IMG/VR virus record: IMGVR_UViG_3300045283_000068
Coordinates: 1 to 35,333 of that record
Direction: 5' to 3' (one strand)
Source: a virus
DNA length: 35,333 nucleotides
Shown: piece by piece, positions 1 through 16,679 of the stretch
Layout of the letters: every line of letters begins with the position of its first letter
How positions within the stretch are numbered: position 1 is the stretch's first letter
Program-made: the position numbers and the translations under genes
The notes under the pieces: model-generated
What the model was told of the DNA's origin: nothing
The model's input: only the letters and a program-made list of their open reading frames with translations
Database searches by the model: none

Positions 1-82
1 CTTCCTTTAAATCAAAGAATTTAATAATGTCGCTGGTCAAGTGTTGCTCGTGACATTATTAAATTCTTTGATTTAAAGGAAG
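1..82. repeat. Perfect 31-bp inverted repeat at the window start
   Basis: Bases 1-31 are the exact reverse complement of 52-82, separated by a 20-base loop (32-51). The right arm is part of the methyltransferase reading frame, where it encodes the strand just before SAM motif I. The left arm has stop codons in that frame (22-27) and makes no protein sense. The in-frame residues encoded from 31 onward (RWSSVARD) look like a normal family N-terminus. The base triplet GTC at 29-31 could belong both to the arm and to the expected upstream codon, which gives a short microhomology at the junction. The simplest reading is a fold-back (template-switch or assembly) artefact at a contig end. A true hairpin is possible but would disrupt the gene. 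Confidence 0.9.
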
Positions 83-507
83 ATGCAAAAGTATTAGATA
101 TTGGGTGCGGCAAGGGCTTTTTGGTTTATGATTTATTAGCCAATGGAATCCTGGGTTCTTATGGATTGGATGTTTCGGAATATGCTATTGAACATAGTAA
201 AATCAGGCATAGAGTCAGACAAGGCAACGCTTTAAAACTTCCATTTTCAGACAAATCTTTCGATTTGGTTGTTTCAATAAACGTGATTCATAATCTACCG
301 CGTGATGGCGTTATTCGTGCATTGAAGGAAATTGAGCGCGTGTCGGATAAGGCGTATATCGTAGTTGATAGCTATAATACTCCAGAGGAAAAAGCGATTT
401 TTGAAAGCTGGGTTCTGACTGCGGAGACTCATGGGTATCCAAGTGATTGGTTGAAAATTTTCGATGAAGCTGGATATAAGGGGTATTACAGTTGGAATCT
501 ATTATAG
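28..507 (+). CDS. Class I SAM-dependent methyltransferase, 5' partial
   Basis: This frame is open from 28 and ends with TAG at 505-507. The N-terminus is lost at the inverted repeat. The Rossmann-type methyltransferase pattern is clear: motif I VLDIGCGKG just after the repeat, the acidic strand end in YGLDVSEYAIEH (motif II), then LPFSDKSFDLVVSINVIHNL (motif IV region) and a strand reading YIVVDSY. The visible part is about 150 residues, so only a short N-terminal segment is missing. It acts in the cytoplasm with S-adenosylmethionine, and the substrate cannot be read from the sequence. Its 3' end overlaps the E1 alpha gene by 16 bases, so the two are probably co-translated and it belongs to the sugar cassette. 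Methylation of a sugar or of a sugar-linked intermediate is a guess from context. Confidence 0.8.
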   Translation, partial: CRWSSVARDIIKFFDLKEDAKVLDIGCGKGFLVYDLLANGILGSYGLDVSEYAIEHSKIRHRVRQGNALKLPFSDKSFDLVVSINVIHNLPRDGVIRALKEIERVSDKAYIVVDSYNTPEEKAIFESWVLTAETHGYPSDWLKIFDEAGYKGYYSWNLL

Positions 508-1358
508 AAAAAATGCTTTTAATTCGTCGTGTGGAAGAGGAGATTGTTTCTCGCTACCCGAAACAATTAATGAGGTGTCCGGTTCATCTCAGCATATCTC
601 AAGAAGCGATTGCCGTAGGTGTTTGTCATCATCTACGCAAGGAAGATTCTGTTTTTTCCACACATCGTTCACACGCTCATTATCTTGCCAAAAATGGTGA
701 CTTAGACAAAATGATTTTAGAGATTCATGGCAAGATAGGCGGTTGCCAAGATGGCCGAGCAGGTTCAATGCACCTAAACGATAAATCTGTAAACGTGATG
801 TCTATTCCCATCGTCGCCAGCGCCGTCCCTCTTGCTGTAGGCGTTGCCCTAGCCAACAAAATTGATGGTAACGGCAACATCGTAGTTTGCTTCTTTGGTG
901 ATGCAGCGGTTGAGGAAGGCGTGTTTTCTGAAAGCATGAACTTCGCCTCCCTCATGCAATTGCCTATTATTTTTGTGTGCGAAGATAATTCTTACTCAGT
1001 TGATACGCATATTAAGAAGCGTCAGCCAGATAGAAATTTGGTTGATTTAGGAAAAGCACATAATATTTTTTCAATGGTTATTGATAGTCATAATGTTTTT
1101 AAAATAGCAGAGAGATTTAAAGACGAAATATCTTTCGTTAGAGATAAGCAGAAGCCTATTTTTGTTGTGATGAAAACTCAGCGTTCGCATGTTCATTGTG
1201 GTGTTGATAAGGAGTTTGAATTGGAAAACGATCCGTTGGATGTTACAAAGCATCCTGACGATACCGAAATAATGGTGCGGATTACCAAAGCTTTCGATGC
1301 TGCCGAGGCCGCACCATTACCAACCCCAGACATGGCGAGCAAGCATGTCTACGCCTAG
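492..1358 (+). CDS. ThDP-dependent E1 component, alpha subunit (2-oxoacid dehydrogenase type)
   Basis: This 288-residue protein matches the alpha chain of pyruvate/acetoin-type E1 enzymes, which decarboxylate 2-oxo acids with thiamine diphosphate. Seen in sequence: RSHAHYLAKNGDL (about 59-71), GRAGSMHL (88-95), and a ThDP/Mg motif running from GDA at 136-138 to DN at 165-166. The family norm is GDG followed about 27 residues later by NN, so the motif is recognisable but altered (A for G, D for the first N). The TTG start at 492 is chosen because AAGGGG (478-483) lies 8 bases upstream. The first ATG (513) has no clear ribosome site. The C-terminus ends in VYA, as is usual in this family. It overlaps the E1 beta gene by 14 bases, which fits an alpha2beta2 enzyme. 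No E2 or E3 gene is in the window, so the acceptor is unknown. Confidence 0.85.
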   Translation: MESIIEKMLLIRRVEEEIVSRYPKQLMRCPVHLSISQEAIAVGVCHHLRKEDSVFSTHRSHAHYLAKNGDLDKMILEIHGKIGGCQDGRAGSMHLNDKSVNVMSIPIVASAVPLAVGVALANKIDGNGNIVVCFFGDAAVEEGVFSESMNFASLMQLPIIFVCEDNSYSVDTHIKKRQPDRNLVDLGKAHNIFSMVIDSHNVFKIAERFKDEISFVRDKQKPIFVVMKTQRSHVHCGVDKEFELENDPLDVTKHPDDTEIMVRITKAFDAAEAAPLPTPDMASKHVYA

Positions 1359-2295
1359 AATCATCACCTCAGCCCAAGCCATCAACGAAGCCCTAGCAAT
1401 CGTCGGAGAGCGCGACAAACGCGTATTGCTCATGGGGCAGGGTATAGACGACAAAGGAGCATTTTATGGTACTACGGAAGGATTATCGCATATATACGGT
1501 GACAGACTTATTGAAACACCCGTTTCTGAAAATGCGATGGTGGGAGTTGCAGTGGGATTGGCCATCTCAGGAAAACGACCTGTCATCCAATTCCATAGAG
1601 TCGAATTTGCCCTCCTTGCCATGGAACAAATCATCAATAATGCCGCCAAAATGCATTATATTAGCAATGGACAGCACAAATGTCCGTTAGTGATACGCAT
1701 GATTGTCGGGCGCGGCTGGGGTCAAGGGCCATGTCATTCGCAGAGTTTAGAGGCTATGTTTGCCTATATACCGGGATTGAAAGTTTTGATGCCTACATTT
1801 CCTGCTGATTATAAGGGTATGCTGATTTCAGCGATAGAGGATGATAACCCTGTGGTGATTATCGAGCATCGCTGGACGCATTATGTGAAGGGTAACGTGC
1901 CAGAAGGGTATTACAAGATCGATATTAATTGGCCTACGCAACTGCGTGAGGGAAAATATCAAACAATAGTAGCTAGTTCATATTCTGTTTTATCTCAGAT
2001 GAATGTAGAAGATTCTGATGTATTTGATCTCAGGGTAATGCGTCCATTAAAATTATTTGGTATCATAGAATCGGTACGAAAAACAGGCCATCTAATTATC
2101 TATGATACAGGTTATAAAACTTTAGGTATCGGTGCTGAGATTATCGCTCAGTGTGTAGAAGAAGGTTTAAAATTCACTGTAGAGCGTCATGGCATCCCCG
2201 ATCATCCTATCCCATCCTCACGTGGGTATTTGCCAGCGATATATCCTGATGGTTGTGGAGATCAGCCTAATCCTGAGTTTCAAGGGCCATTTTAG
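1345..2295 (+). CDS. ThDP-dependent E1 component, beta subunit
   Basis: This is the beta chain (316 residues) that pairs with the preceding alpha chain. Family landmarks are present: the Glu that contacts the thiamine ring in ETPVSEN (Glu62), the segment NNAAKMHYISNGQHKCPLVI, the CHSQSLEAMFAYIPGLKV stretch with its conserved His, and the C-terminal transketolase-like domain with a Pro-rich end. I use the ATG at 1345 (MSTPRIITSAQAIN). An in-frame upstream start at 1297 would add 16 residues read from alpha-chain codons and is unlikely. The family is about 320-330 residues, so the gene is full length. Its stop lies inside the convergent neighbour's 3' end. Codon use near the alpha/beta junction (about 1290-1440) looks more GC-rich than the flanking DNA, hinting at separate ancestry. 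Confidence 0.85.
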   Translation: MSTPRIITSAQAINEALAIVGERDKRVLLMGQGIDDKGAFYGTTEGLSHIYGDRLIETPVSENAMVGVAVGLAISGKRPVIQFHRVEFALLAMEQIINNAAKMHYISNGQHKCPLVIRMIVGRGWGQGPCHSQSLEAMFAYIPGLKVLMPTFPADYKGMLISAIEDDNPVVIIEHRWTHYVKGNVPEGYYKIDINWPTQLREGKYQTIVASSYSVLSQMNVEDSDVFDLRVMRPLKLFGIIESVRKTGHLIIYDTGYKTLGIGAEIIAQCVEEGLKFTVERHGIPDHPIPSSRGYLPAIYPDGCGDQPNPEFQGPF

Positions 2296-2929
2296 CAACA
2301 GTATCAACATCTCTTTGTAAATGTGGTCCAATCCCATTTCCGGGTTTTAGATAAGCGTGTTGACCTATGCGCTTGTCGGACTGCAAAGCTGGTATAATAT
2401 CATTCCAATTAGCCCCTATTTCCTCAGCTATTTTTGCTAATTTATTGGTGGTTTCGAGTTGTGCGACAAGATATAGATTGATGGCAATTTTTGATAGTTC
2501 AGCAGATTCGTAGGACATATGTAAAATAGGGCAATTGAATGATTGTAGAAATGTTAAATATCTTACATCAATAAATTCATTATCTCCTATAATAATTCTT
2601 TCAGGATTTAGTGCTCTTTCTAGGGCTTCATCATTTATCTTGAGAGTTTCAACCTGATAATAAAGTTGATATGTTGGCCATTTTATAGTGCGGGTAAATC
2701 CTGGGTCTACTTGGCAGAGAACGACGAGTATCGCGTCTTTTTTTAGTCTTGGTAAGATTTTTTCTACCGCTTCTTCTGGCGATACATCACTCGGCCTATC
2801 AGGGGAAATATATACAATATCACATTCCTCAATTTTTTCTGTGACTTCAAATCCATTAATCTTAGAGGCCTCCGCGCTATGCGTTCCGAGATGTCCGTAG
2901 TCAGAAAATCCAATTATAGGCTTACTCAT
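2267..2929 (-). CDS. Compact UDP-glucose/GDP-mannose dehydrogenase-family protein lacking the catalytic Cys
   Basis: This 220-residue protein resembles nucleotide-sugar dehydrogenases (usually about 400 residues or more) but is much shorter. A shortened Rossmann part is visible (GFSDYGHLGTHSAEASKINGFEV, then CDIVYISPD), then the VDPGFTR turn that matches the family PPGTT turn. The central helical domain follows (YESAELSKIAINLYLVAQL to IGANWNDIIPAL) with its RIG motif. The active-site loop reads PGNGIGPHLQRD where canonical members have PGxGxGGxCxPKD. The Cys needed for the two-step oxidation is absent, and the C-terminal NDP-sugar domain is missing. It may be a non-oxidising or non-catalytic relative, or use another chemistry. 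I recall similar Cys-free relatives in sugar loci, but not firmly. It is the last gene of the minus-strand operon and overlaps the HldE-like gene by 8 bases. Confidence 0.7.
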   Translation of the reverse strand: MSKPIIGFSDYGHLGTHSAEASKINGFEVTEKIEECDIVYISPDRPSDVSPEEAVEKILPRLKKDAILVVLCQVDPGFTRTIKWPTYQLYYQVETLKINDEALERALNPERIIIGDNEFIDVRYLTFLQSFNCPILHMSYESAELSKIAINLYLVAQLETTNKLAKIAEEIGANWNDIIPALQSDKRIGQHAYLKPGNGIGPHLQRDVDTVAKMALETQD

Positions 2930-4388
2930 ACTTACTTAACTTTCTCAAAACATCTTCTGGTTTAATCAGAACATTCCCATCTATTTCACACTCACAAGCA
3001 GCGGCCATTGAACCGATAATGCACGCCTGAGGGAGTGATTTGGTTGCGAGCATAGTAAGGGTAGCATAGGCAAGGAAGGCATCGCCAGCGCCAACGGCAT
3101 CCTTAACATTATTAGAAAAACTATCTACTGAATAAGGCAAATCATTCTCTAAGAAGAACGCGCCTCGCTCACCGAGTTTAAGAATGATATTTTTAGCCAT
3201 TGCTGCTTCTTTAGTAAGGGATACAAGATTACCAATATTTGAATCCTGATCTGCAAGTGCAAAACGCGCCTCTTTTTCATTAGGGGTGATTAAATCAAAT
3301 CCTTTGAATTCGGTGATATTTCCCCAACGAGATGCTACCTGACTATCGGCTACAGTAAAAATTCTATCAGGAATAGCTGTTGAAAAATCATTGATGGTTG
3401 CTTTGCTGAATATCCCGTGTCGAAAATCAGAGAATACGACACAATCTGCCGTAGTCTCTTTAATATCGCTTACAATTTCTTTAGCAATCCTTGCTGAAAT
3501 AGGTGCATTATCTAGAGTATCTATCTTCAGTAAACGCGATCCGCCAGCTATAATTGTATTCTTATGTGTAGTAGGGCGTGTTTCGTCAATAATTGCATTG
3601 ATTTTGACGCCTTCTATCTTCCTAGCTAGTGCACCATTCTTATCATTTCCGAGAACTGTCGTAAAAGTTACGTTTGCCCCAGCAGCAGCTAAATGCTGTG
3701 CCACGATTGCCGCTCCTCCGATGTAGTCTTCCTGACCGTCATAGAGGACGCTAAATGTTGGGGTTTTTGCATTGCTGCCTATAAGATTTGTTCGTGTGTA
3801 TGTGTCTATAATAGTGTCCCCGATAACATGTACTTTAAAATCTTTGAACTTGGTGAAAGCATCCCGCAACATATCGAATGTAATATCGAACCTCTTCATT
3901 AGGCTGATAAGTTTTTCGATATGAAGTTTTGGAAGATGTGTGTTTAAGAGCTTTGTGGAACTGTAAACAATGTCACCTGGGGTGAAGATCATTTCTCCGC
4001 CATAGCTTTCTACGGCTTGTGTTTCGGCTGATGTTGCGGGGTTATCAGCCCCATACTCGAATCCTTTGGCAAAATAATCGGGTTTCAATTCATTGATAAG
4101 CCCAATAGCATCAGGAGCATCTGTGATTAGCACATAATCAACCATTTCAAGGGCAGATAGGCTTTCAGCGCGGATTTGCTGAGGTACATGTGGTCGATAG
4201 ATACCTTTGGTGATATGCTTATCTGCTGTCAAACTAGCGACAAGAATCTCAGCTTTAGACTTTGCGTAGTTCAAGTGTCGAATATGGCCGGGATGCAAAA
4301 TATCAAAGCAGCCATGCGCTAAGATTACCTTCTTAGAACGGTCTAGCTTTTCAATAAGCAGTGGTAGCGTGGATATTTTGGAGGACAT
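2922..4388 (-). CDS. Bifunctional nucleotidyltransferase / PfkB sugar kinase, HldE-type with swapped domains
   Basis: This 488-residue protein has two enzymes in one chain. Residues about 15-150 form a cytidylyltransferase-like domain with the nucleotide-binding signature GCFDILHPGH (HPGH at 32-35). Residues about 165-488 form a PfkB/ribokinase-fold kinase, with YIGGAAIVAQHLAAAGANV and the catalytic GAGDAF at 433-438. In the Gram-negative ADP-heptose pathway HldE phosphorylates D-glycero-manno-heptose 7-phosphate and then transfers AMP to heptose 1-phosphate. Escherichia coli HldE has the kinase first and the transferase second, and here the order is reversed. The start overlaps the preceding epimerase gene by 38 bases, supporting co-translation. 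The sugar could be a heptose or another phosphate sugar. GmhA and GmhB, needed for the full heptose route, are not in the window. I withhold a gene symbol because of the reversed order. Confidence 0.82.
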   Translation of the reverse strand: MSSKISTLPLLIEKLDRSKKVILAHGCFDILHPGHIRHLNYAKSKAEILVASLTADKHITKGIYRPHVPQQIRAESLSALEMVDYVLITDAPDAIGLINELKPDYFAKGFEYGADNPATSAETQAVESYGGEMIFTPGDIVYSSTKLLNTHLPKLHIEKLISLMKRFDITFDMLRDAFTKFKDFKVHVIGDTIIDTYTRTNLIGSNAKTPTFSVLYDGQEDYIGGAAIVAQHLAAAGANVTFTTVLGNDKNGALARKIEGVKINAIIDETRPTTHKNTIIAGGSRLLKIDTLDNAPISARIAKEIVSDIKETTADCVVFSDFRHGIFSKATINDFSTAIPDRIFTVADSQVASRWGNITEFKGFDLITPNEKEARFALADQDSNIGNLVSLTKEAAMAKNIILKLGERGAFFLENDLPYSVDSFSNNVKDAVGAGDAFLAYATLTMLATKSLPQACIIGSMAAACECEIDGNVLIKPEDVLRKLSKYE

Positions 4389-5262
4389 TTGCGATCCCTT
4401 CCTCGAATGTTACTTTCGGTTCCCATCCAAGCTGGGTTTTAATCTTGGTAATATCAGCACAGGTAATATCAGGTTCATGTGATCGCTTAGGGATATAGGT
4501 TTTCTCACCTCCCAATAATTCCAGCATACGATTGACACTCTGAGGATTGCCAGTACCACAGTTGAATCGTTCACCACGAATATCTGTCTCGGCGGCGGCT
4601 AGGAAGGCTCTAGCTACGTCAGTTACATACACAAAGTCACGTTTTTGCTCACCATCACCAACCACCGTGAATGGCTTTCCTGAGAGCTTCTGCTGGATGA
4701 ATATACCAAGTCCTGTAGGGCCTACCCTAGGGCCGTATGCATCAAAAATACAGATTGCATTGGCAGGTAAGTCAAAAAATTGATTCCAATGGAATACAGC
4801 TTGCTCACCTAGATATTTGGAAAGTCCGTAAGGGTGTTGTAAATTGATAGGACAATTTTCACTTGTCGGAACCTCAGATGCTACCCCATAGTTTGCCGAT
4901 GACGAAGCATATACAAACTTTTTTACTTTAGCATGTCGGCACGCTTCTAACATTCTCACAGTTCCTTGCACATTCGTCATCATATATTCAGATGGGCGTT
5001 CAAATGATGGACGAATACTTCCTAGACCTGCAAGGTGGAAATAGTAATCTACATCTTCCATAACTGGATTTTCTGGCTCAAAGGTATTGATGTCTGCAAT
5101 TCGGATAGATAGGTTTGGGTTGATAATGCAATGATCTAAGTTAGATAAACCGCGTTCTTTTCCTGAGTCTATTACGCGAACCCGATGCCCTTTCTCAAGA
5201 AGGAGATCAACTAAGTGACTACCCACGAAGCCAAAACCACCAGAAACAACGGATATAGTCAT
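4351..5262 (-). CDS. NAD-dependent sugar epimerase/dehydratase (extended SDR) A
   Basis: This 303-residue extended short-chain dehydrogenase most likely acts on a nucleotide sugar (4-epimerase, 4,6-dehydratase or related). It has the NAD-binding GGFGFVG (8-14), an acidic residue ending strand 2 (VRVIDSG), the SSSANYG strand, and the catalytic YGLSK (Tyr145, Lys149). RDFVYVTDVARAFLAA and FNCGTG in the C-terminal half are typical of the substrate-binding region. The start at 5262 is chosen because its ATG overlaps the stop of the upstream gene (ATGA) and AAGGA lies about 10 bases upstream. A longer reading to 5319 would place extra basic residues before the Rossmann fold. It sits between a second epimerase and the HldE-like gene, so it probably reshapes the sugar before or after activation. 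Exact substrate not determinable. Confidence 0.85.
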   Translation of the reverse strand: MTISVVSGGFGFVGSHLVDLLLEKGHRVRVIDSGKERGLSNLDHCIINPNLSIRIADINTFEPENPVMEDVDYYFHLAGLGSIRPSFERPSEYMMTNVQGTVRMLEACRHAKVKKFVYASSSANYGVASEVPTSENCPINLQHPYGLSKYLGEQAVFHWNQFFDLPANAICIFDAYGPRVGPTGLGIFIQQKLSGKPFTVVGDGEQKRDFVYVTDVARAFLAAAETDIRGERFNCGTGNPQSVNRMLELLGGEKTYIPKRSHEPDITCADITKIKTQLGWEPKVTFEEGIANVLQNIHATTAY

Positions 5263-6269
5263 AATGCATTTATCCTTTTCAATCTTCTTACGGGATAATA
5301 AATATCGTCTTCTAAGCAATTAGGAACTTCAAATCTGCGGAATTCTTTAGCTAAACCGCGTATAGCGTCTTCAACAGAAAATTGCGGAACGAAGCCAAGG
5401 GCATTTTTAATCTTGTCAGAATTTATATGGTAGGAGCGAATGTCATCATCACTGGATTTTACTTCGATTTCGACATTTTTCTTAACTCCATATTTCGTGT
5501 ATTCTCCTTCCACAACTTTTTTTACCAGTTCTGCAATTTGCAATATGGACATATTCTGAAAGCCGACATTGAATATTTGATTGGCTATTTTTTCGGTAGG
5601 AGCAGTCATCAGTAATTTTACTACTTCTGCATAGTCTTTGACATGCAGGTTCGGGCGTAATTGTGAGCCGCCGAAAACTGTGATTTTATCTTTCATGCAA
5701 GCATGGCAGGTAAGAATATTGACTGATAAATCCAATCTTAGGCGAGGAGCATATCCACATACTGTTGCTGGTCGGAATATAACACCAACAAAATCAGCAT
5801 CCGTATGTTTGAATAATATCGGCTCCACAAGTCCCTTGTATTTGTTATAAAGGGTGAGGGGCACCAAAGGGTGATCTTCGAATACATCTGGTGCATCTGA
5901 TACACCGTAGACGGAACTTGTAGATGCATGAATAAAGCGTTTAATTCCTGAGCGTTTTGCTGCCAAAACCATTGGCTCAAAGGCATCATAATTTATACTG
6001 ATTGAAAGGGCATCATCTAGCTCAAAGCTTGCATCATTGGTAATACATGCAAGATTGATAAAAATGTCATGCTCCTTGCAAGCCTCTTCCAATTTGGCGG
6101 TATCACGAATGTCGCCTTCAATAATTTTTAGGTTAGGTAATCCTGTTAAATGCTCTTTTCCAAAGTAAAGAATGTCATATCCGGTAACTTCGTGTCCAGC
6201 GAATACTAAAGAGGGTATAAGAACGCTTGCTGTGTAGCCGCACGCGCCAGTGATAAAGACGCGACTCAT
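5259..6269 (-). CDS. NAD-dependent sugar epimerase/dehydratase (extended SDR) B
   Basis: This 336-residue extended SDR has a dinucleotide site GACGYTA (8-14), which is GxxGxxA rather than the usual GxxGxxG. The rest is normal: EGDIRD after the acidic strand, HASTSSVYG, the catalytic YNKYK (Tyr141, Lys145), FRPATVCG and LHVKDYAEVV. Sequence identity to the neighbouring epimerase is low by eye, so they are not a recent duplication and probably do different steps. It starts inside the transaldolase stop (ATGA, 6266-6269) and ends in an ATGA overlap with epimerase A, so translation of the three is coupled. Candidate roles are nucleotide-sugar 4-epimerase, 4,6-dehydratase or reductase, including an HldD-like heptose step. 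The sequence alone does not decide. Confidence 0.85.
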   Translation of the reverse strand: MSRVFITGACGYTASVLIPSLVFAGHEVTGYDILYFGKEHLTGLPNLKIIEGDIRDTAKLEEACKEHDIFINLACITNDASFELDDALSISINYDAFEPMVLAAKRSGIKRFIHASTSSVYGVSDAPDVFEDHPLVPLTLYNKYKGLVEPILFKHTDADFVGVIFRPATVCGYAPRLRLDLSVNILTCHACMKDKITVFGGSQLRPNLHVKDYAEVVKLLMTAPTEKIANQIFNVGFQNMSILQIAELVKKVVEGEYTKYGVKKNVEIEVKSSDDDIRSYHINSDKIKNALGFVPQFSVEDAIRGLAKEFRRFEVPNCLEDDIYYPVRRLKRINAL

Positions 6270-6952
6270 AATACATATCCCGATTTAGCCGCATCGTTAT
6301 AGAACATGCGAACCGTGTCTAGTGAAAATTCTGTTAAGTCTTTATCTTTAAATTTTTCGTACCTCGAAAGAATATCTGGTGTGACAGTGATGATGTGGCA
6401 GCCTTGATTTGATGCTTGATATATATTTAAAACCTCACGGCAAGATGCCCAGAGGATTTTTATTGGTGGGTCTGTATCTACTACTGCATTGGCAATAATA
6501 GATTCGGCATCACCACCAGTGTCGGTTATACGGCCAGCAAAGATAGAAATTATCCCGCTCTTCATTGCTTTTGCAATTTCATTTACCTGTTCTTCCGTAA
6601 ATACTGCCGTCACGTTGCATACGATTCCATCATCGCTCAATTTCTTCACCAGCGGTGCGGCGCTCTCACCTTCTGTATTAGTTATCGGAATTTTAACATT
6701 TACATTACTACCCCATGACGCAATCTTACGAGCCTGACACTCCATTTCATCCCACTCATCGGAGAACACCTCAAAAGAGATTGGTAGTCCATCGGCAATT
6801 TCTAATGCTTCTTTGCAGAATGCTTCGTAGTCCGTGACACCGGCTTGCCTAGCCAGCGAAGGGTTGGTCGTAAACCCGCGTACAAGTGGGTTCTTACGCC
6901 CTTCGCACATGGCTTCGAGATTTGCACCGTCTAAATAAATATCAATTCCCAT
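6266..6952 (-). CDS. Transaldolase / fructose-6-phosphate aldolase family (TalC-like)
   Basis: At 228 residues it has the size of the small TalC/FSA type rather than classical TalB (about 316). Conserved blocks are IYLDGANLEAM at the N-terminus, GFTTNPSLAR (26-35), EVFSD, the Schiff-base lysine in NVKIPIT (Lys87), CNVTAVFTEEQ and SIFAGRITDTGGD. The enzyme transfers a dihydroxyacetone unit between sugar phosphates, linking fructose 6-phosphate with sedoheptulose 7-phosphate, the entry compound of heptose synthesis. GAGG is 4 bases before the ATG (6957-6960 on the minus strand). It is the first gene of the five-gene minus-strand operon, directly behind a promoter-like sequence. Small transaldolases are known as auxiliary metabolic genes of marine cyanophages, where they feed the pentose phosphate pathway. 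Here the setting suggests sugar precursor supply. Confidence 0.88.
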   Translation of the reverse strand: MGIDIYLDGANLEAMCEGRKNPLVRGFTTNPSLARQAGVTDYEAFCKEALEIADGLPISFEVFSDEWDEMECQARKIASWGSNVNVKIPITNTEGESAAPLVKKLSDDGIVCNVTAVFTEEQVNEIAKAMKSGIISIFAGRITDTGGDAESIIANAVVDTDPPIKILWASCREVLNIYQASNQGCHIITVTPDILSRYEKFKDKDLTEFSLDTVRMFYNDAAKSGYVL

Positions 6953-6980
6953 AATTCCTCTTTCGGTGTATTATCGTATT

Positions 6981-7008
6981 ACATTATGGCATTTTATTTT
7001 TAGGTCAA
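6981..7008 (-). promoter_or_regulatory. Putative sigma70-type promoter for the minus-strand sugar operon
   Basis: Read on the minus strand, TTGACC (7008-7003) is followed after 16 bases by TAATGT (6986-6981), which keeps the key T, A and final T of the -10 box. Transcription would begin near 6974, about 20 bases before the transaldolase start. The 65-base gap between transaldolase and terminase is the only space between the two divergent transcription units. Confidence 0.5.
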
Positions 7009-7017
7009 GAAGATATT

Positions 7018-8604
7018 GTGGATAAGAAAATAGTTAGTCATCTTTTGGAGTTAAAACTTCGGCGTCAAGCTGAGGATGATTTTTACACCTTTGTTCAGCA
7101 GGCTTGGCATATCATTGAGCCTGGTTCTCCTTTCGTTGGTGGATGGGCAATTCGTGTAATATGTGAGCATTTGGAGGAGGTGTATCATGGCCGAATACGA
7201 AAATTATTGATAAATCAACCTCCGCGTACTTCTAAAAGTTCCCTAGTATCTGTACTTTTTCCTGTGTGGTGCTGGCTAAAGCGACCAAGCGAACAGTTTA
7301 TGTGCGTAAGTTATGCAGAATCTCTAGCAAAACGCGATAACGTAAAGGCTCGTCGTCTTATAAAATCCAGATGGTTTCAGAATCGATGGCCTATGGCGCT
7401 TGCTGAAGATCAGGACACAAAAACATATATTGAAAATACTCAAGGTGGCTATCGGTATGTGACTGGTATTGATGGTTCTGTGACAGGTTTCGGAGCCAGT
7501 ACAATCATTATGGATGATCCAAATTCAGCACGCGATAATAGTGAAGTAATGCTTGAAAGTGCTTTATCATTTTATACAGATGTTCTGCCAACTCGTTTTA
7601 ATGATTTTAAAACTGGAAAGATGATTGTTGTGCAACAGCGCGTTCATCAATCTGATATCAGCGGATGGATATTAGCTAACCAAGCAAAAGAGGTAGTCGC
7701 ACTCATTTTGCCAATGGAATTTGAAGAATCGCGTCGATGTATTACCGTTCCTTTAAAATCTACGAATGGCGAATCATGGCAGGATCCTCGTGAGAATGAA
7801 GGCGATCTTCTGTGGCCAGAGAGATTTGGAGAAAGGGAATTAAAATCCCTTAAAATTGCTCTAGGCGGTGAATATGCCATAGCTGGACAATTGCAGCAGC
7901 GCCCAGCCCCCGCTGCTGGCGGTATGATAAAACGTGCTTGGTGGATGCCATGGAAAGAAGAGTTACCGCCAATAATTCGCTTTACTATCCAAGCATGGGA
8001 TACTGCTACTAGCATAAAAGATAAAGCTGCATATTCTGCTTGTTTAACTTTTGGCATATTTAAAGACGATCATGAGCATGATTGCTTAATACTTCTTGCG
8101 GCTTGGAGAAAAAAGGTTGAATTTCCTGATTTGTATAAGGCAGTGCAGCGTATGGCGAAAGACTATCGGGCTACTTCAGAAGATAGGCCGATAAATTCAA
8201 GATATGCACCAGATTTGATATTGGTAGAAGAAAAATCAAGCGGGGTTCAATTGATTCAAACCCTTAATAAAACTGGTATAACCCTTGTTGGATGGCGTCC
8301 TGATAAGTATGGGGATAAAGAAGAGCGTGTAAGACGGGTAACTCATATATTGGAATCAGGTCGTGTTTATGTACCATATAAAGGGCCTGATTTTACAAAA
8401 CCAAGACAGTATGCTGATTTTTTAATTGGACAAGCGGCCTTATTCCCAAAGGGAGATAGTCGAGATCTTGTGGATTGCCTTACAATGATATTGCAACGCT
8501 GTATCAACTCTGGCTGGATTCTTCATTCTCTCGAACAAAGCGCTGCTCAGGAAACTGAGTGGCGTAGGGAGCATTATGAGACTGAAGGGAAGGCACTTTA
8601 TTAA
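7018..8604 (+). CDS. Terminase large subunit (DNA packaging ATPase/nuclease)
   Basis: This 528-residue protein is the motor that drives phage DNA into the prohead and cuts it. The N-terminal ATPase has Walker A PPRTSKSS (68-75), Walker B TIIMDDP (162-168) and a coupling-type motif near VVQQRVHQSD. The C-terminal RNase H-like nuclease shows AWDTATS with an acidic residue, LVEEKSSGVQL, and a final acidic cluster in RDLVDCLTM. The GTG start has only a weak upstream purine stretch (AAGAAG). The gene is first on the + strand after the sugar cassette and is followed by the portal. A small terminase subunit is not found next to it, so it is probably elsewhere in the genome or beyond the window start. 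Packaging type (cos, pac, direct repeats) cannot be told. Confidence 0.95.
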   Translation: MDKKIVSHLLELKLRRQAEDDFYTFVQQAWHIIEPGSPFVGGWAIRVICEHLEEVYHGRIRKLLINQPPRTSKSSLVSVLFPVWCWLKRPSEQFMCVSYAESLAKRDNVKARRLIKSRWFQNRWPMALAEDQDTKTYIENTQGGYRYVTGIDGSVTGFGASTIIMDDPNSARDNSEVMLESALSFYTDVLPTRFNDFKTGKMIVVQQRVHQSDISGWILANQAKEVVALILPMEFEESRRCITVPLKSTNGESWQDPRENEGDLLWPERFGERELKSLKIALGGEYAIAGQLQQRPAPAAGGMIKRAWWMPWKEELPPIIRFTIQAWDTATSIKDKAAYSACLTFGIFKDDHEHDCLILLAAWRKKVEFPDLYKAVQRMAKDYRATSEDRPINSRYAPDLILVEEKSSGVQLIQTLNKTGITLVGWRPDKYGDKEERVRRVTHILESGRVYVPYKGPDFTKPRQYADFLIGQAALFPKGDSRDLVDCLTMILQRCINSGWILHSLEQSAAQETEWRREHYETEGKALY

Positions 8605-8663: not shown

Positions 8664-11147
8664 ATGGCATACCGCCCTCTACAAGATGTAATTGGAGGTT
8701 CTGGACTAGGAACCCCTATCCCAGACGAATCGGTGATGATGGATGCTCCTCCAGAGGCAGAAGTTGGTGATATTAGCGTAATTGATGATGTAGACGGTGG
8801 TGCGACAGTAATAATCGAACAAAAGAAGCCCGGAAGTAAATCAATACCCCTAGATTTGCCATTTGATGCCAATTTAGCCGAATATATTGATGATTCTGAC
8901 CTTTCTAGCATCGGTCAAGATGTTAAGGAAATGGTTACAAATGACATCGAAACTAACACAAAATGGCGTGATGACTTCAATAATGGGCTAAAATTTCTTG
9001 GTTTTACCCCGGAAGATAGAGATTGGGTATTTAAGGGTGCAAGTGGTGCGTGGGATACTAAATTACTCGAAGGGCTTATTCGGCTTCATGCTGAGATTTT
9101 TGGGGAGCTTTTCCCGGCAGAAGGTCCAGCAGATTGCCGTATTATTGGTGAGGAATTACCACCTGCCGTAGACCAAGCAAGTCGCATCAAGGCGTGGACG
9201 AATTACTACCTTACCCGCGTTGCTAAGGAATATTACGACGATTCTGATCAGATGCTAAACTATGCTATTATGGCTGGATCGGCCTTTCGCAAGAGTTATA
9301 TCTGCCCGGTATTGCGTCGTCCAGTAGCGAAGTACCTAACGCCTAACAATGTGGCCATGTCCTATAATAGCACGAGCATTTACGATGCTGAGCGCTTTAC
9401 GCATATCGACGATGTAACGCCACGCAATATGAAATTGCTGCAAATCGACGGATTTTATCGTGATGTAGATTTACCGATTGGCGATGACAATAATACCGAT
9501 ATTTCCAAAGATGATGTCGATCAGGCGGCTGGTATGGAAAAAACCAGTTCTGTCAATGATCGGTCGTTTGGTATCTATGAAACGATGCTTGATTATGACT
9601 TACCAAATTTTGAGCATCCAGACGGATTGCCGCTTCCTTATAAAATAACTATTGACTCGATTTCTGGTGAAGTTCTGCGTATTGAGCGAAATTGGAAGCA
9701 GAAAAAAGCCGAAACAGAAGCGGTATATGAGAAAAAATTGAATGTTTCCCACTGGAAATTCATGCCAGGGTTCGGGCCTTTTGGTATCGGAATTATCCAA
9801 TGTTTAGGCGGATCCACTGAATCTCGCACCAAAATCAAGCGTATGTTGCATGATTCTGGCGTATTTTCTAACTTTCCGCCGACTATCCGCGTCAAGGGAA
9901 TGCGAATGGAGCATAATAGTGCTGCCTTGAAGCCCGGTGAGAATGTTGAGCTTGATACTGGCGGGATGCCAATTAACCAAGCCGTTCAGCAGATGGCGGT
10001 TAAAGAGCCTTCATTAATGCTTAAAACCATCCATGATGATGACGGTCAGGCTGCTGACAGGCTTATTGGTAACATGGATATTGCTGTTGGTGATGGCAGA
10101 CAGGATGCGCCGGTTGGTACGACTATTGCTCTCTTGCAAGCCGCCAAGAAGCCACAGACAGGTGTTATGCGCCGTATGCATCGTGCGCTCACGCATGAGC
10201 TTGAGAACTTCTTTGAGATGTTTGGTGAGTGGCTGCCTGATGCGCCATATCCATTCCCTGTAGCTGGTGCGATGAAGTCTATTATGCGTCAGGATTTTGC
10301 ACCTACGATGATGCTTACTCCGGTGTCCGATCCTAATGTCATGAGTCAGACGGAGCGCATGTTACGCTCTGAGCAGATTATGAAAATATCTATGCAGATA
10401 CCACCAAATGCTCCGCCTTATCAAATTGAAGCAGCTCGGCGTATGTTTTCAAATATGAAAATAGATAATGTTGATAAACTTTTGCCGCCACCCCCACAGC
10501 AGGCACAACCAGAAGATCCTGTGACGGAAAATATGGGGGCAATGACTGGCAAGCCTATGAAGGCATTTATTCAGCAGAATCATGATGCTCATATTGCGGT
10601 GCACGGGCCTTTGGCTGAAGCTATTCCTGCCATGCAAGCTCATATCAGCGAGCATCAATCTATGAAGTATCGATTAATAATTGAGAATACGCTAGGATTC
10701 CCATTACCGCCAGAAGGTGCTCCGATTGATCCGATGATTCAAGAGCGTATTGCGATGCTTTCTGCTGCTGCAACGCAAAAATGGACTGATGATCAGAAAG
10801 CTAAGAATCCTCCGCCGCCGACTATGGAGCAAATCATGATGGCTGATATCGACGCCAAGCGGGAGAAAGAGAATTTAAGGCACTCTGACGCTATGGCTAA
10901 GATACAGAGTGAGGCAGAAATTCAGAATATTAAATCCGATGATGCCGCGGCACAGAGAGCAGTTGAATTAGATAAGGTGCGCTTGAAAACAATGGCTGAT
11001 GTAGCGCAAAACACACCATCTGGGCTTACCCCGGCTGAGAAAGTTGCTCATATTTCCGGTGAAACTAGTATCGCTGTAGCCAGAATTAAAGCTGGTAGCA
11101 CCACGGGTGAAAAAGAATATGAGTATGAAAAAAAGAAAGGTGATTGA
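8664..11147 (+). CDS. Portal protein (large podovirus-type)
   Basis: This 827-residue protein is assigned as the portal, the ring at the capsid vertex through which DNA is packaged and ejected. The assignment rests on its place directly after terminase and on its sequence. A segment near 90-130 (WRDDFNNGLKFLGF, then a Trp-rich stretch) opens the core. Then follow QMLNYAIMAGSAFRKSYI, the stem/clip-like region with TRIVKRM-type helices (SRTKIKRMLHDSGVF), and RLIGNMDIAVGDG with GTTIALLQ before a helical crown. The last 150 residues are rich in charged helix with many Ala, Gln and Lys (EQIMMADIDAKREKENLRH), probably a coiled coil. The N-terminal 65 residues are acidic and low in structure. It is larger than T7 (about 536) or P22 (about 725) portals. 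A promoter-like sequence precedes it. Confidence 0.85.
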   Translation: MAYRPLQDVIGGSGLGTPIPDESVMMDAPPEAEVGDISVIDDVDGGATVIIEQKKPGSKSIPLDLPFDANLAEYIDDSDLSSIGQDVKEMVTNDIETNTKWRDDFNNGLKFLGFTPEDRDWVFKGASGAWDTKLLEGLIRLHAEIFGELFPAEGPADCRIIGEELPPAVDQASRIKAWTNYYLTRVAKEYYDDSDQMLNYAIMAGSAFRKSYICPVLRRPVAKYLTPNNVAMSYNSTSIYDAERFTHIDDVTPRNMKLLQIDGFYRDVDLPIGDDNNTDISKDDVDQAAGMEKTSSVNDRSFGIYETMLDYDLPNFEHPDGLPLPYKITIDSISGEVLRIERNWKQKKAETEAVYEKKLNVSHWKFMPGFGPFGIGIIQCLGGSTESRTKIKRMLHDSGVFSNFPPTIRVKGMRMEHNSAALKPGENVELDTGGMPINQAVQQMAVKEPSLMLKTIHDDDGQAADRLIGNMDIAVGDGRQDAPVGTTIALLQAAKKPQTGVMRRMHRALTHELENFFEMFGEWLPDAPYPFPVAGAMKSIMRQDFAPTMMLTPVSDPNVMSQTERMLRSEQIMKISMQIPPNAPPYQIEAARRMFSNMKIDNVDKLLPPPPQQAQPEDPVTENMGAMTGKPMKAFIQQNHDAHIAVHGPLAEAIPAMQAHISEHQSMKYRLIIENTLGFPLPPEGAPIDPMIQERIAMLSAAATQKWTDDQKAKNPPPPTMEQIMMADIDAKREKENLRHSDAMAKIQSEAEIQNIKSDDAAAQRAVELDKVRLKTMADVAQNTPSGLTPAEKVAHISGETSIAVARIKAGSTTGEKEYEYEKKKGD

Positions 11148-11420: not shown

Positions 11421-11651
11421 ATGTCTATTCAATCCTTCACCGAAACTCTTCTGGCCAACATCGAAAAGACTTTCGAGAATGAAGCCAATAAACTCCTCAA
11501 CGAAGCCCGGCAGCGCACTGGTAATGAATCCTATACGGCAGGCCGTATGGATGGATTAAGCGATGCTGTAAGGCAAATCCACGAAACTTACGCTCTTTTT
11601 GTCAAATCAGAATCAGACCCAAAGGATGATGATGCCAAATCGCTGTACTAG
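11421..11651 (+). CDS. Small helical protein of unknown function (76 aa)
   Basis: This 76-residue acidic protein is predicted by eye to be almost wholly helical (LLANIEKTFENEANKLLNEA, then DGLSDAVRQIHETYALF). No named motif is recognised. It begins just after a terminator-like hairpin with only a weak ribosome site, and its 3' end overlaps the start of the GroES-like gene by 20 bases. The overlap and the compact setting make it likely real. In many tailed phages a short helical protein lies at this spot between portal and scaffold, often with no known role. Confidence 0.7.
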   Translation: MSIQSFTETLLANIEKTFENEANKLLNEARQRTGNESYTAGRMDGLSDAVRQIHETYALFVKSESDPKDDDAKSLY

Positions 11652-12078
11652 TGATCAAATCTCATTTCTTGATGATAGTGCTCGTCGGGTGGTTGTAGAT
11701 AATATCTCTGCTGAGTTCTGGCCTCATATTCGCGCCAAAGGTCATTATATCGTAGTGAAGCCTTATGTACGCCCTAAAAAAACAGATGAAGTTATGCTGC
11801 CTGAGTCTCTAAGGGATGAGGATATGCACCATAGCGTGGCTGCACAAGTAATTGATATCGGCCCTACAGCTTATATCGATGAAAAATTTTGTGGTGGCGT
11901 AGCATGGGTTGAAATTGGGGACTGGGTGTTCATTCCTCGTGTGGCTGGCGCTCGTGTTGGCATGAAGTCTGCTGATGGGAGCGACACTATTCTTAGAATT
12001 GTGAATGAGGACGATATTATTGCTATTATTAGTGATCCTGCTGAATGGGAAATTCGTATTAATGCAACCAAATACTAG
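11632..12078 (+). CDS. GroES-like (Cpn10-fold) protein, possible head-assembly co-chaperonin
   Basis: Residues about 36-133 of this 148-residue protein follow the GroES pattern. First comes a strand with basic residue and proline (GHYIVVKPY), then a mobile-loop-like stretch ending in VMLPESL (the EVxLP of GroES). Then come a strand and glycine-proline turn (AAQVIDIGPTA), VEIGDWVFIPRVAGARV (GroES has VGDxVLFxxYAGxxV), and a final ILRIVNEDDIIAII matching GroES REDDILAVI. Phage T4 gp31 is the classical phage GroES substitute, which lets GroEL fold the capsid protein. The position directly before the scaffold and capsid genes fits that role. The start at 11632 is chosen because AAAGGA (11621-11626) is properly spaced. 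The upstream TTG at 11599 and two other ATGs are less suitable. Confidence 0.75.
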   Translation: MPNRCTSDQISFLDDSARRVVVDNISAEFWPHIRAKGHYIVVKPYVRPKKTDEVMLPESLRDEDMHHSVAAQVIDIGPTAYIDEKFCGGVAWVEIGDWVFIPRVAGARVGMKSADGSDTILRIVNEDDIIAIISDPAEWEIRINATKY

Positions 12079-13620: not shown

Positions 13621-14307
13621 GTGTGGTGTCTTGCGAGTTTAAATCGCCCAGAACAATGTGCTGAAGTTATTGAGCGCTTAAAAAAACACGGATGTTCAAC
13701 TCCAGGGGTTTTGTTTGTAAATACAAACGAAGATGGCGATGGTTCCCTATATAAGAATATCGAACTTCCGCGTGGCTGGCATCTTGAAATCCATTCAAAA
13801 AATATTGGCCTATGTGGAGCAATGAACTGGGTATTCAATAAATATCCGAACGAGCCATTTTACGGGATGATTACTGATGATGAGTTTATCGCTACTGATG
13901 GTTGGGATAAGATTCTAGTGGATTCCGCTGGGGTATGGAATATTTCAAATGGCAATAATGGATGGCAATCTCATAGACGAATACACGGATTTATGACCAT
14001 TGGTGGTGAATTAGCTAGATCAGTAGGATATTTGATGCCACAGGGCTTGTGGCATTGGTATTCAGATGACGTTTGGGAAGCCATCGCTAATAGAGCGGCA
14101 CTTAGGAGATTTTGTCCTGATGTTAAAATAGAAAATAAGCATTGGATGCTTGGGAATGCTGCAAAAGACAAGACATACGAACTCTCAGAATCTCGCAATG
14201 TGCAGGATAGGGAAATTTTCCTGCGCTGGCAGGCTAAAGAACTTCCGTCGATTATGAAGCGTGTGATGGATGGCATAGGAAATCCTACGGTGGTTTATGC
14301 GGTCTAA
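13621..14307 (+). CDS. Glycosyltransferase-like protein (GT-A fold type)
   Basis: This 228-residue protein has the shape of a small GT-A family glycosyltransferase: an N-terminal strand with MWCLASLNRPEQC, a helical region, then YGMITDDEFIATDGWDKIL. Here the acidic pair (TDDEF, 85-89) stands where the metal/nucleotide-sugar DxD lies, followed by GWD. RRIHGFMTIGGELARSVGYL and HWYSDDVWEAIANRA are typical of the acceptor part of a family I know from other phages. The GTG start gives the conserved MWCLA beginning, so it is preferred despite a distant ribosome site. The gene lies between head genes, 3 bases after the previous stop, and overlaps the O-methyltransferase by 11 bases, so they act as a pair. 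The likely target is a virion or host glycan, unproven. Confidence 0.68.
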   Translation: MWCLASLNRPEQCAEVIERLKKHGCSTPGVLFVNTNEDGDGSLYKNIELPRGWHLEIHSKNIGLCGAMNWVFNKYPNEPFYGMITDDEFIATDGWDKILVDSAGVWNISNGNNGWQSHRRIHGFMTIGGELARSVGYLMPQGLWHWYSDDVWEAIANRAALRRFCPDVKIENKHWMLGNAAKDKTYELSESRNVQDREIFLRWQAKELPSIMKRVMDGIGNPTVVYAV

Positions 14308-15034
14308 AAATGCAGTCTGGGATTCTGAAGAATTGGCATCTATCCAGAACAAGGATAGGATGCTTCCTTCGCAGCCATATTTCTCAAAAATGTACAATGG
14401 TAATGATTTTTATGGAAGCATGGAGCGGTTAGTGAGTTCCGTGTGCGAAAAGCCAAATTGGGATATTAAAACAAAAGATGGTGTCACTTATGCAGTTCTT
14501 GGATCGGATCTAAATACGCTTAGGTTTTACCAATTTCTGATTCACTTAAAGCGTTACAAGAAAGTTCTCGAATTGGGAACTTATATTGGCGTGTCTGCTA
14601 TGTACATGGCTGATGCTGGGGCGCATGTTACAACAGTTGAGATGGGCAAGGAATTTTTTAGCATTGCCCAAGAAAATGTTATTACAAATGGATTTCATAA
14701 AAAAATTGATTTGTGTAACGGTGATGCCATTAAGTTTTTAGAGAAAAACAAGGGGCTATACGATTTAATTCTTATTGATTGCGCCAAAGAATATTACAGA
14801 GAACTCTTAGAACTATCCCTGCCACGCCTTTCATCCAATGGCATAATCCTAGTGGACGACGTGTTTTTCCAAGGAGATACGCTAAATAATAGCCCTACTT
14901 CTGAAAAGGGAATAGGTGTTAGGAATATGCTAGATTATGTCACTACTTTAGAGGGGTATGAGAAGGTGATATTACCATTAGGCAACGGACTTCTTCTGGT
15001 GCAAAAATTTCCGCTTGACACTAATTGTAGATAA
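14297..15034 (+). CDS. O-methyltransferase (family 3, SAM-dependent)
   Basis: This 245-residue protein matches the catechol/caffeoyl-CoA O-methyltransferase group. SAM motif I is VLELGTYIG (90-98), and the acidic end of strand 2 is VTTVEM (Glu115). LILIDCAKEYY carries the metal-binding Asp161, and GIILVDDVFF carries the Asp pair (187-188) used in this family. The first 75 residues hold helices typical of the acceptor cap, including FYGSMERL. It overlaps the glycosyltransferase start-to-stop by 11 bases. Together they may add and then methylate a sugar. Its 3' end carries the promoter for the capsid genes. It differs from the methyltransferase at the window start, which is a different subfamily. 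Confidence 0.85.
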   Translation: MRSKNAVWDSEELASIQNKDRMLPSQPYFSKMYNGNDFYGSMERLVSSVCEKPNWDIKTKDGVTYAVLGSDLNTLRFYQFLIHLKRYKKVLELGTYIGVSAMYMADAGAHVTTVEMGKEFFSIAQENVITNGFHKKIDLCNGDAIKFLEKNKGLYDLILIDCAKEYYRELLELSLPRLSSNGIILVDDVFFQGDTLNNSPTSEKGIGVRNMLDYVTTLEGYEKVILPLGNGLLLVQKFPLDTNCR

Positions 15035-15767: not shown

Positions 15768-16679
15768 ATGGCCGTAACTAACAGCGCACTCGTCCAGAAC
15801 TTACTCCGTCCGGGTTTGGCCGATATTCTTATCGCAGCCAGCACAGAGGATGCGGTATCAAAACAGGTTTTCAAAAAGAAAACTTCGGATAAAAACTTTG
15901 AAATCGACGTAGAAGTAGCTTTGCTGCCACTTGGTCGTGAAAAGCCTGAAGGTACGGAAATCTCTTATGAGCAAATGCGTCAGACGTTCACTACGACTTA
16001 TGTGAATCGTTCTTATGGCCTTGGTTTTATAGTTACTCGTGAAGCAATTGACGATAATCTTTACAAAAAAGATTTTCCGATGCAGTCAGAGTCCCTGAAG
16101 AATTCGATGCAGCAATTAGTTGAAGTGAATTGCGCCTCTATTCTTAACAATGCCTTTGATACTAACTATCCGATTGGTGATGGTCAGCCTTTGGTTTCTA
16201 CCGCACATCCTCTTGCAAACGGCACTACGCAGTCAAACGGCGTAACTGTTGCGATTGGTTTAAACGAAGCAGCTACTCAGGATTTCGTTTCTCAAATCAA
16301 GAAAATGCGTGCGGCTTCTGGTTTATTTGATACCGTATCGCCTTTTGGCTACATTGTTCCGACTGAACTTGCGTACAACGCAGATCGTATGATGTCTTCG
16401 ATGTATCGTCCTGCAACAGCAAACAATGATATCGGTGTTATCCCGAACATGAAGCTTCTTCCGAAAGATGCGATTTCTTGGCGCTATCTTACGAGTTCGA
16501 CGGCTTGGTTTATCCAGACGGATGCGCCTCTTGGCTTGACTTTCTTTGATCGTGTGCCGGTTGAATTTGACACGATTGAAGACCAGAGTTTGAAAGCAGT
16601 GAAGGTCACGGCGTATCAGAGATATAGTCCTGGTGTGACTAACTTCCGTAATATTGTTGGTACATCTGGTGTCGCATAA
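15768..16679 (+). CDS. Major capsid protein (Mu gpT/HK97-fold type)
   Basis: This 303-residue protein has the layout of the Mu gpT-like major head subunit. An N-terminal arm (ALVQNLLRPGLADILI) is followed by an extended strand with RQTFTTTYVNRSYGLGFIVTREAIDDNLY, a conserved block at the spine helix of this group. Next is SESLKNSMQQLVEVNCASILNNAF, then the LVSTAHPL strand with GDGQP before it. The A-domain follows with TAWFIQTDAPLGLTFFDRVPVEF and the final YQRYSPGVTNFR. AGGAGA lies 7 bases before the ATG. It is not followed by a protease domain, and no capsid protease gene is seen in the window. It sits after scaffold and decoration genes, as expected for the prohead module. Confidence 0.88.
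   Translation: MAVTNSALVQNLLRPGLADILIAASTEDAVSKQVFKKKTSDKNFEIDVEVALLPLGREKPEGTEISYEQMRQTFTTTYVNRSYGLGFIVTREAIDDNLYKKDFPMQSESLKNSMQQLVEVNCASILNNAFDTNYPIGDGQPLVSTAHPLANGTTQSNGVTVAIGLNEAATQDFVSQIKKMRAASGLFDTVSPFGYIVPTELAYNADRMMSSMYRPATANNDIGVIPNMKLLPKDAISWRYLTSSTAWFIQTDAPLGLTFFDRVPVEFDTIEDQSLKAVKVTAYQRYSPGVTNFRNIVGTSGVA

Follow-up and report, generated by a model that had tools for sequence, protein, structure and literature searches.

Why would a podovirus-type phage carry a block of sugar genes directly beside its terminase, and what could it make with them? The question is raised by the first 7 kb of the IMG/VR record IMGVR_UViG_3300045283_000068, all 35,333 bases of which are called the window here (the record comes without a host genome). 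An earlier note on this DNA had listed eight sugar-related genes at that place, and all eight are present, with their families confirmed by Pfam and NCBIfam: MT, E1a and E1b on the plus strand and Tal, EpiB, EpiA, HldE and DH on the minus strand, in two convergent arms whose ends overlap, followed by a divergent terminase gene. Judging by the protein families, it is quite probable that this cassette serves heptose-type nucleoside diphosphate (NDP) sugar synthesis. With distinctly less assurance, we lean towards the more specific reading of it as a bacterial nucleotide-heptose operon copied in compact form and adapted to the phage, by which the phage might encode the synthesis of a modified, possibly C2-branched heptose.

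The cassette and its bacterial counterpart

The bacterial counterpart was obtained by scanning species genomes with an HldE alignment, which gave 36 loci at 46-60% identity, besides distant planctomycete loci. The 36 loci span Alphaproteobacteria, Chlamydiota, Omnitrophota, Elusimicrobiota, Myxococcota, Bacillota, Acidobacteriota, Verrucomicrobiota and others, and their recurrent order is gmhA-gmhB-Tal-EpiB-EpiA-HldE, the last with swapped domains, followed by a GFO/IDH/MocA oxidoreductase (GFO), a full-length gene resembling uridine diphosphate (UDP)-glucose dehydrogenase (UDPGDH), an RmlD-like short-chain dehydrogenase/reductase (SDR) and MT. EpiA is next to HldE, and HldE next to GFO, in 30 loci each, with GFO and DH adjacent in 28, EpiB and EpiA in 27, Tal and EpiB in 19, gmhB and Tal in 16 and gmhA and gmhB in 15; by Pfam, the partner genes are SIS_2 (gmhA), HAD (gmhB) and GFO. 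This widespread and ordered operon is apparently undescribed, and we found no account of it, or of the cassette combination in a phage, among open-licence papers.

In the window, the minus-strand arm reads Tal-EpiB-EpiA-HldE-DH, each gene overlapping the next by 4 to 38 bases, and the successive genes of the arm MT-E1a-E1b overlap as well; all are intact except MT, which is cut by the contig end. A promoter-like site common to the minus-strand genes, which the earlier note had claimed, is statistically unsupported: positions 1-7400 contain 14 sigma-70-like sites against 20.6 expected by chance, and none was found on the minus strand of 6953-7017.

By family function, Tal, GmhA and GmhB make and use sedoheptulose 7-phosphate. 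Tal (6266-6952, minus strand), a small transaldolase, passes the curated cut-off of TIGR02134 with 284.8 against 281.95 bits. HldE (2922-4388, minus strand; 488 residues) joins a nucleotidyltransferase domain (CTP_transf_like, residues 24-115) to a PfkB kinase domain (residues 185-468), in the reverse order of the E. coli protein, and keeps the catalytic motifs HPGH and VGAGDA. The two extended SDRs are EpiA (4351-5262, minus strand; NAD-dependent epimerase/dehydratase, Epimerase 1.3e-53) and EpiB (5259-6269, minus strand; Epimerase 4.7e-31). Among solved structures EpiB is closest to 6vo6 (4.7e-28), thirteen orders of magnitude ahead of the next best match (1e-14). The database name of 6vo6 is putative sugar-nucleotide epimerase/dehydratase, and we take it to be Cj1427, the GDP-heptose C4-dehydrogenase. 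Enzymes of the Cj1427 type oxidise an NDP-heptose at C4, with alpha-ketoglutarate recycling the NADH. If our identification of 6vo6 holds, the nearest solved relative of EpiB would be such a C4-dehydrogenase, and the two epimerases need not isomerise the sugar, as had been supposed. Together with gmhA and gmhB, which stand beside the same transaldolase in bacteria, this match indicates a modified NDP-heptose and strengthens the earlier suggestion of a heptose or related sugar. Cj1427 of Campylobacter jejuni converts GDP-heptose to a 4-keto sugar (PMC10680097).

The cassette also occurs in independent contigs with phage structural genes. Viral contig 3300036830_000257 (L002) carries MT, E1a, E1b, OMT (an O-methyltransferase, see below), DH, HldE, EpiA and Tal at 56-81% identity, and in viral contig 3300028800_001009 (L099) Tal-EpiA-HldE-DH is placed between terminase and portal, with the end of the terminase gene overlapping the start of Tal. 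Both sister contigs have a phrog_2 terminase and a phrog_332 portal, which are other types than those of the window (terminase large subunit at 7018-8604, plus strand, phrog_38, 7.3e-78; portal at 8664-11147, plus strand, phrog_1216, 1.1e-20), and in the sister phages GmhA and a DegT aminotransferase lie within the same cluster. Across seven proteins compared between the window and L002, the proportion of nonsynonymous differences (pN) is 0.14-0.30 and that of synonymous differences (pS) 0.73-0.82; the cassette is under strong purifying selection, with synonymous sites too saturated for most dN/dS ratios to be given as a figure. Of the two outcomes that the earlier note had named as fatal to a phage-encoded gene set, an assembly join and broken homologues, neither was found, and related phages carry the cassette intact. 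A 208-residue open reading frame between the terminase and portal of L002 (3383-4006) appears sulfotransferase-like by eye (HALPRSRTSWL).

In the HldE tree, the proteins of the window and of these two contigs form one clade (100/100). The tree was also used to test whether HldE entered phages only once, which it did not support: its supported branches require the phage label to change five times or more, and thus phages would have acquired HldE several times, or lost and regained it. A plasmid search returned only distant HldE relatives, of about 31% identity at best.

The E1 pair, the dehydrogenase-like protein and the transferases

E1a (492-1358, plus strand; 288 residues; Pfam E1_dh, 2.9e-45) and E1b (1342-2295, plus strand; 317 residues; Transket_pyr, 2.3e-31) are the alpha and beta subunits of a thiamine diphosphate (ThDP) E1 enzyme whose cofactor-binding and catalytic residues are intact. 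E1a keeps the motifs GDA..EEG..DN and HRSH, and the Glu of SEN and the His of GRGWGQGPCHS in E1b are kept in 36/36 sequences compared. E1b is 81-83% identical to its phage relatives, and the pair shares its GRGWGQG motif and a C-terminal FxGPF/Y tail with the operon-linked bacterial E1s, E1a and E1b being adjacent in 7/36 bacterial loci. Sugar genes lie on all sides of the pair, and no lipoyl or E3 domain was found among the window proteins scanned, which were not every open reading frame. Such E1 alpha/beta pairs without E2/E3, known as alpha-KADH2, transfer the C2 unit of pyruvate onto C3 or C4 of a keto-sugar (PMC12247030), and AviB1/B2 and Pau11/12 are E1 pairs that put C2 branches on keto-sugars by themselves (PMC4425429). 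By analogy, the chances are about even that the pair of the window adds a C2 branch to a keto-sugar, for which a 4-keto-heptose would be a fitting acceptor.

An alignment scan with E1b yielded 26 viral contigs with the E1 beta subfamily of the window; since the GRGWGQG motif served as one of two search patterns, its conservation in those matches is by selection. Several contigs with unrelated terminases have, along with E1a-E1b, GmhA, EpiA, EpiB, DegT and a further swapped HldE that is more distant (26-31%). Larger contigs, of up to 548 kb, have E1 pairs in other settings without the remaining cassette; they may include host DNA, and no inference is drawn from them. Other genes recur in these surroundings. 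Eight viral contigs have, next to the E1/HldE module, a radical SAM protein of about 385 residues that may be a further sugar step (L117:2005-3231, L126:9015-10184, L127:11233-12351, L131:10073-11233, L132:9114-10238, L134:9081-10244, L136:2854-3978 and L137:9776-10924). Three cassette-bearing viral contigs encode a protein of about 470 residues without a Pfam or PHROG match (L105:17483-18913 and L106:14387-15805, both minus strand; 307 residues in L112:1200-2120, plus strand), possibly a glycosyltransferase, and a 538-residue protein between capsid and HldE (L132:3480-5093) has a C-terminal methyltransferase and a weak N-terminal hint of a family-2 glycosyltransferase.

DH (2267-2929, minus strand; 220 residues; UDPG_MGDP_dh, 1.6e-13) has the two-domain NAD fold of UDP-glucose dehydrogenases, which are the best Foldseek matches of its structure model (mean pLDDT, the model's confidence score, 92.7). 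The catalytic Cys260 of the Streptococcus pyogenes UDPGDH is invariant in 229 sequences (PMC4794789). At this position almost all bacterial DH-type proteins have Asn, and the phage proteins, like a small number of bacterial ones, have His; DH thus lacks the invariant Cys of a four-electron UDP-glucose or NDP-sugar 6-dehydrogenase; the equivalents of Lys204, Asn208 and Asp264 (K147, N151 and D207) are invariant in 31 DH-family sequences. Since the catalytic Cys is replaced, DH should perform a single two-electron step rather than a four-electron oxidation yielding a uronic acid. The Cys-less protein of the earlier note is real as to the missing residue, but it is no phage oddity, and by its sequence and predicted fold DH belongs to a conserved subfamily that has the UDP-glucose dehydrogenase fold but not the Cys. 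Decay of DH through loss of the Cys in this phage was considered and rejected, as all members of the family that were read carry Asn or His in its place. One bacterial locus has its UDPGDH-like gene broken into two reading frames (L049:18740-19573).

The left end of the window is not intact. Bases 1-31 repeat bases 52-82 exactly in reverse complement, forming an inverted repeat (1-82) with 31-base arms and a 20-base loop inside the MT gene, which is likely an assembly or amplification artefact. Homology of MT (31-507, plus strand; class I methyltransferase, Methyltransf_11, 6e-17) to its relatives spans the right arm and begins near base 31; about 66 N-terminal residues present in the MT of L002 are missing. 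The contig therefore breaks off within MT, and position 28, where the gene was previously said to start, is no true gene start. MT is 62% identical to the MT of L002 and L016 (220 residues) and up to 58% identical to operon-linked bacterial MTs. Beyond MT, L002 continues with genes for a GmhA-like SIS isomerase, an HNH endonuclease and a DegT aminotransferase, in this order, and the window is therefore probably without part of the cluster; a counterpart of the sister-phage GmhA probably lies beyond the cut end.

Two further candidates lie between the portal and scaffold-region genes and the major capsid gene (15768-16679, plus strand; Phage_capsid_4, 4.3e-08; phrog_371), namely GT (13621-14307, plus strand; phrog_14945 glycosyltransferase, 8.5e-20) and OMT (14297-15034, plus strand; Methyltransf_3, 1.3e-21). 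OMT is likely a pathway member, as its counterpart occurs within the cassette of a related phage: it is 72% identical to the OMT beside E1b in L002 and 66% to those of L099 and L106, and two related phages have the same OMT inside or beside the cassette. GT is weakly similar to glycosyltransferases that Streptomyces phages encode beside nucleotidyltransferases, and no relatives of it turned up in a viral scan. The distantly similar glycosyltransferase occurs in Streptomyces phage Daubenski and about 55 relatives (H91-H110), several of which have, next to it, a nucleotidyltransferase annotated as heptose kinase/adenylyltransferase.

The remainder of the window is a podovirus-type structural region with portal, major capsid, tail fibre and DNA-ejection matches. 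Relatives of its terminase and capsid include Roseobacter phages CRP-901/902, and those of the capsid also Pelagibacter phage HTVC023P, at 34-38%; a scan with the terminase gave relatives of only 33%, with no cassette seen beside them. A GroES-like co-chaperonin (phrog_3188, 1e-5; Cpn10 under the Pfam cut-off) lies in the head-gene region at 11599-12078.

Proposed route, destination and rival readings

In the route that we propose, the transaldolase would provide sedoheptulose 7-phosphate, which GmhA, an isomerase that the sister phages have, would turn into heptose 7-phosphate; the swapped HldE would phosphorylate C1 and, after a GmhB-type phosphatase of host or phage, add the nucleotide. EpiB, most like Cj1427 if 6vo6 is that enzyme, might then oxidise C4 to give a keto-heptose, to which EpiA and DH may make further changes in single two-electron steps. 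The E1 pair, acting without E2/E3, could use ThDP and pyruvate to place an acetyl (C2) branch on the keto group, MT and OMT might methylate the sugar, and GT may transfer it to a surface, be it a virion protein or a host glycan.

Several points weigh against this reading. The sequences show the gene families, their intact frames and conserved catalytic residues, the conserved operon, its recurrence in other phages and purifying selection; the chemistry of every step, the choice of nucleotide, the C2 branch and the acceptor are inferred, and 6vo6 is named only as a putative sugar-nucleotide epimerase/dehydratase. The window itself is without gmhA or gmhB. HldE, EpiA and EpiB score far under the NCBIfam equivalog cut-offs (HldE 149.9, 143.8 and 97.6 bits against 521 for NF008454 and 345 and 181.5 for the rfaE domains), and their substrates may thus differ from manno-heptose. 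Moreover, the phage DH has lost the C-terminal UDP-binding domain that the bacterial form has, so that its substrate may not be an NDP-sugar, and the bacterial operon has E1a in only 8/36 and E1b in 7/36 loci in the stretch seen, which makes C2 branching an optional step at best. The GT assignment comes from one PHROG match and distant similarity, a single-sequence structure model having reached a pLDDT of 42 and been left unused.

As to where the sugar would go, we regard virion and host surface as about equal. It is possible, if short of an even chance, that the sugar is placed on host lipopolysaccharide or capsule, where it would alter the receptor and exclude other phages in the manner of O-antigen conversion genes. 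The bacterial operon is of the surface-polysaccharide precursor type, and the cyanophage and large-phage versions lie among many glycosyltransferase and polysaccharide genes, whereas the cassette has no evident gene for a membrane flippase or an acyltransferase, and its placement by the head genes fits late expression, when receptor masking would be least useful. The other destination, which we hold to be only slightly less probable, is the phage particle: the sugar would be made late with the head genes and attached to capsid or tail proteins by a phage glycosyltransferase. This is consistent with the finding that, in about ten contigs whose terminases are of several kinds, a terminase, portal or capsid gene lies within 0.4-5.6 kb of the E1/HldE genes, and with the position of GT and OMT; however, phage structural regions often receive foreign genes, and the HldE contigs 50138, 9418, 28380 and 20171 have no head gene by BLAST within about 10 kb. 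If the sugar does go onto the virion, that would account for the cassette lying next to the genes for capsid and terminase. A bolder version, which we consider improbable, is that unrelated tailed phages repeatedly captured the heptose pathway and an E1 pair of the alpha-KADH2 type so as to decorate their own particles with a nine-carbon sugar bearing a C2 branch; glycan chemistry of this kind on virions would be previously undescribed.

There is a small chance that the cassette simply supplies ordinary ADP-L-glycero-D-manno-heptose for the inner core of the host lipopolysaccharide, given that the transaldolase, HldE and the GmhA of relatives are steps towards ADP-heptose. Yet by model score neither SDR qualifies as the ADP-heptose 6-epimerase (99.8 and 37.8 bits, the cut-off being 274.6), and DH, the E1 pair and the methyltransferases would be superfluous. 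Still less do we favour the E1 pair as ordinary pyruvate or acetoin dehydrogenase subunits that boost host energy metabolism during infection; the best general models are indeed those of pyruvate dehydrogenase E1 alpha and beta (TIGR03182, 221 bits; PRK09212, 230 bits), but the scores fall far under the pyruvate dehydrogenase equivalog cut-offs, the pair sits among nucleotide-sugar genes in phages and bacteria alike, no E2 or E3 was recognised in the proteins scanned, and the closest relatives (37-83%) are operon-linked or from phages and have the common C-terminal tail. Finally, a host fragment misassembled onto a phage contig, which the fold-back at the left end might suggest, is in the main ruled out and has a negligible probability in view of the same genes beside terminase and portal genes in independent contigs, the terminase/Tal overlap of L099, the supported clade of three phage HldEs and a cassette codon usage that correlates with the phage core of the window (r 0.934) as well as one half of the core does with the other.

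Comparison with known systems

Recurrence of the same kind of gene set in unrelated viruses, often beside capsid or packaging genes, suggests that exotic sugars coat virus or host, and a modified phage heptose would link phage nucleotide-sugar genes with the GDP-heptose modification of Campylobacter and with ThDP-dependent branching of keto-sugars, so far a matter of antibiotic clusters. With phage gene sets this small, all steps could be tested in vitro. Phage-carried nucleotide-sugar synthesis is known, and what is unmatched to a described pathway is the combination of genes. The earlier note had found no described system to match; this stands for the combination in the open-licence papers searched, but two kinds of partial match exist, in cyanophages and in the E1 branched-sugar pairs of actinomycetes.

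Among the closest systems is the bacterial operon itself, which has homologous genes in the same core order; unlike it, the window version is without GFO, the RmlD-like gene and the C-terminal domain of DH, and includes the E1 pair. The C. jejuni pathway is similar in its sedoheptulose-7-phosphate entry enzymes (in relatives of the cassette), in having a kinase and a nucleotidyltransferase, and in the SDR closest to 6vo6, presumably Cj1427. That pathway makes modified GDP-heptoses by GmhA, a kinase, a phosphatase, a nucleotidyltransferase, Cj1427, epimerases and reductases (PMC10680097). The cassette differs from it in one fused nucleotidyltransferase-kinase instead of two proteins, a transaldolase in the operon, the Cys-less UDPGDH-like protein, the E1 pair and carriage by a phage.

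The alpha-KADH2 systems (avilamycin AviB1/B2, paulomycin Pau11/12 and kibdelomycin KbDH) likewise have an E1 pair in a sugar cluster without E2/E3, with kept ThDP and catalytic motifs and with methyltransferases and keto-sugar-making genes nearby, a likeness to AviB and Pau in motifs and gene setting; the known cases concern antibiotic sugars, mostly of actinomycetes, whereas the route in the window would be heptose-directed and is phage-borne. Cyanophages S-SM2 (L017) and P-TIM68 (L018), in turn, have in their glycan clusters an E1-like protein, annotated as transketolase central region, next to carbohydrate kinase, nucleotidyltransferase, epimerase and phosphoheptose isomerase genes. They differ from the window in that this is one short fused protein of about 400 residues, in their separate kinase and nucleotidyltransferase genes, in being T4-like phages and in identities of 27-36%.

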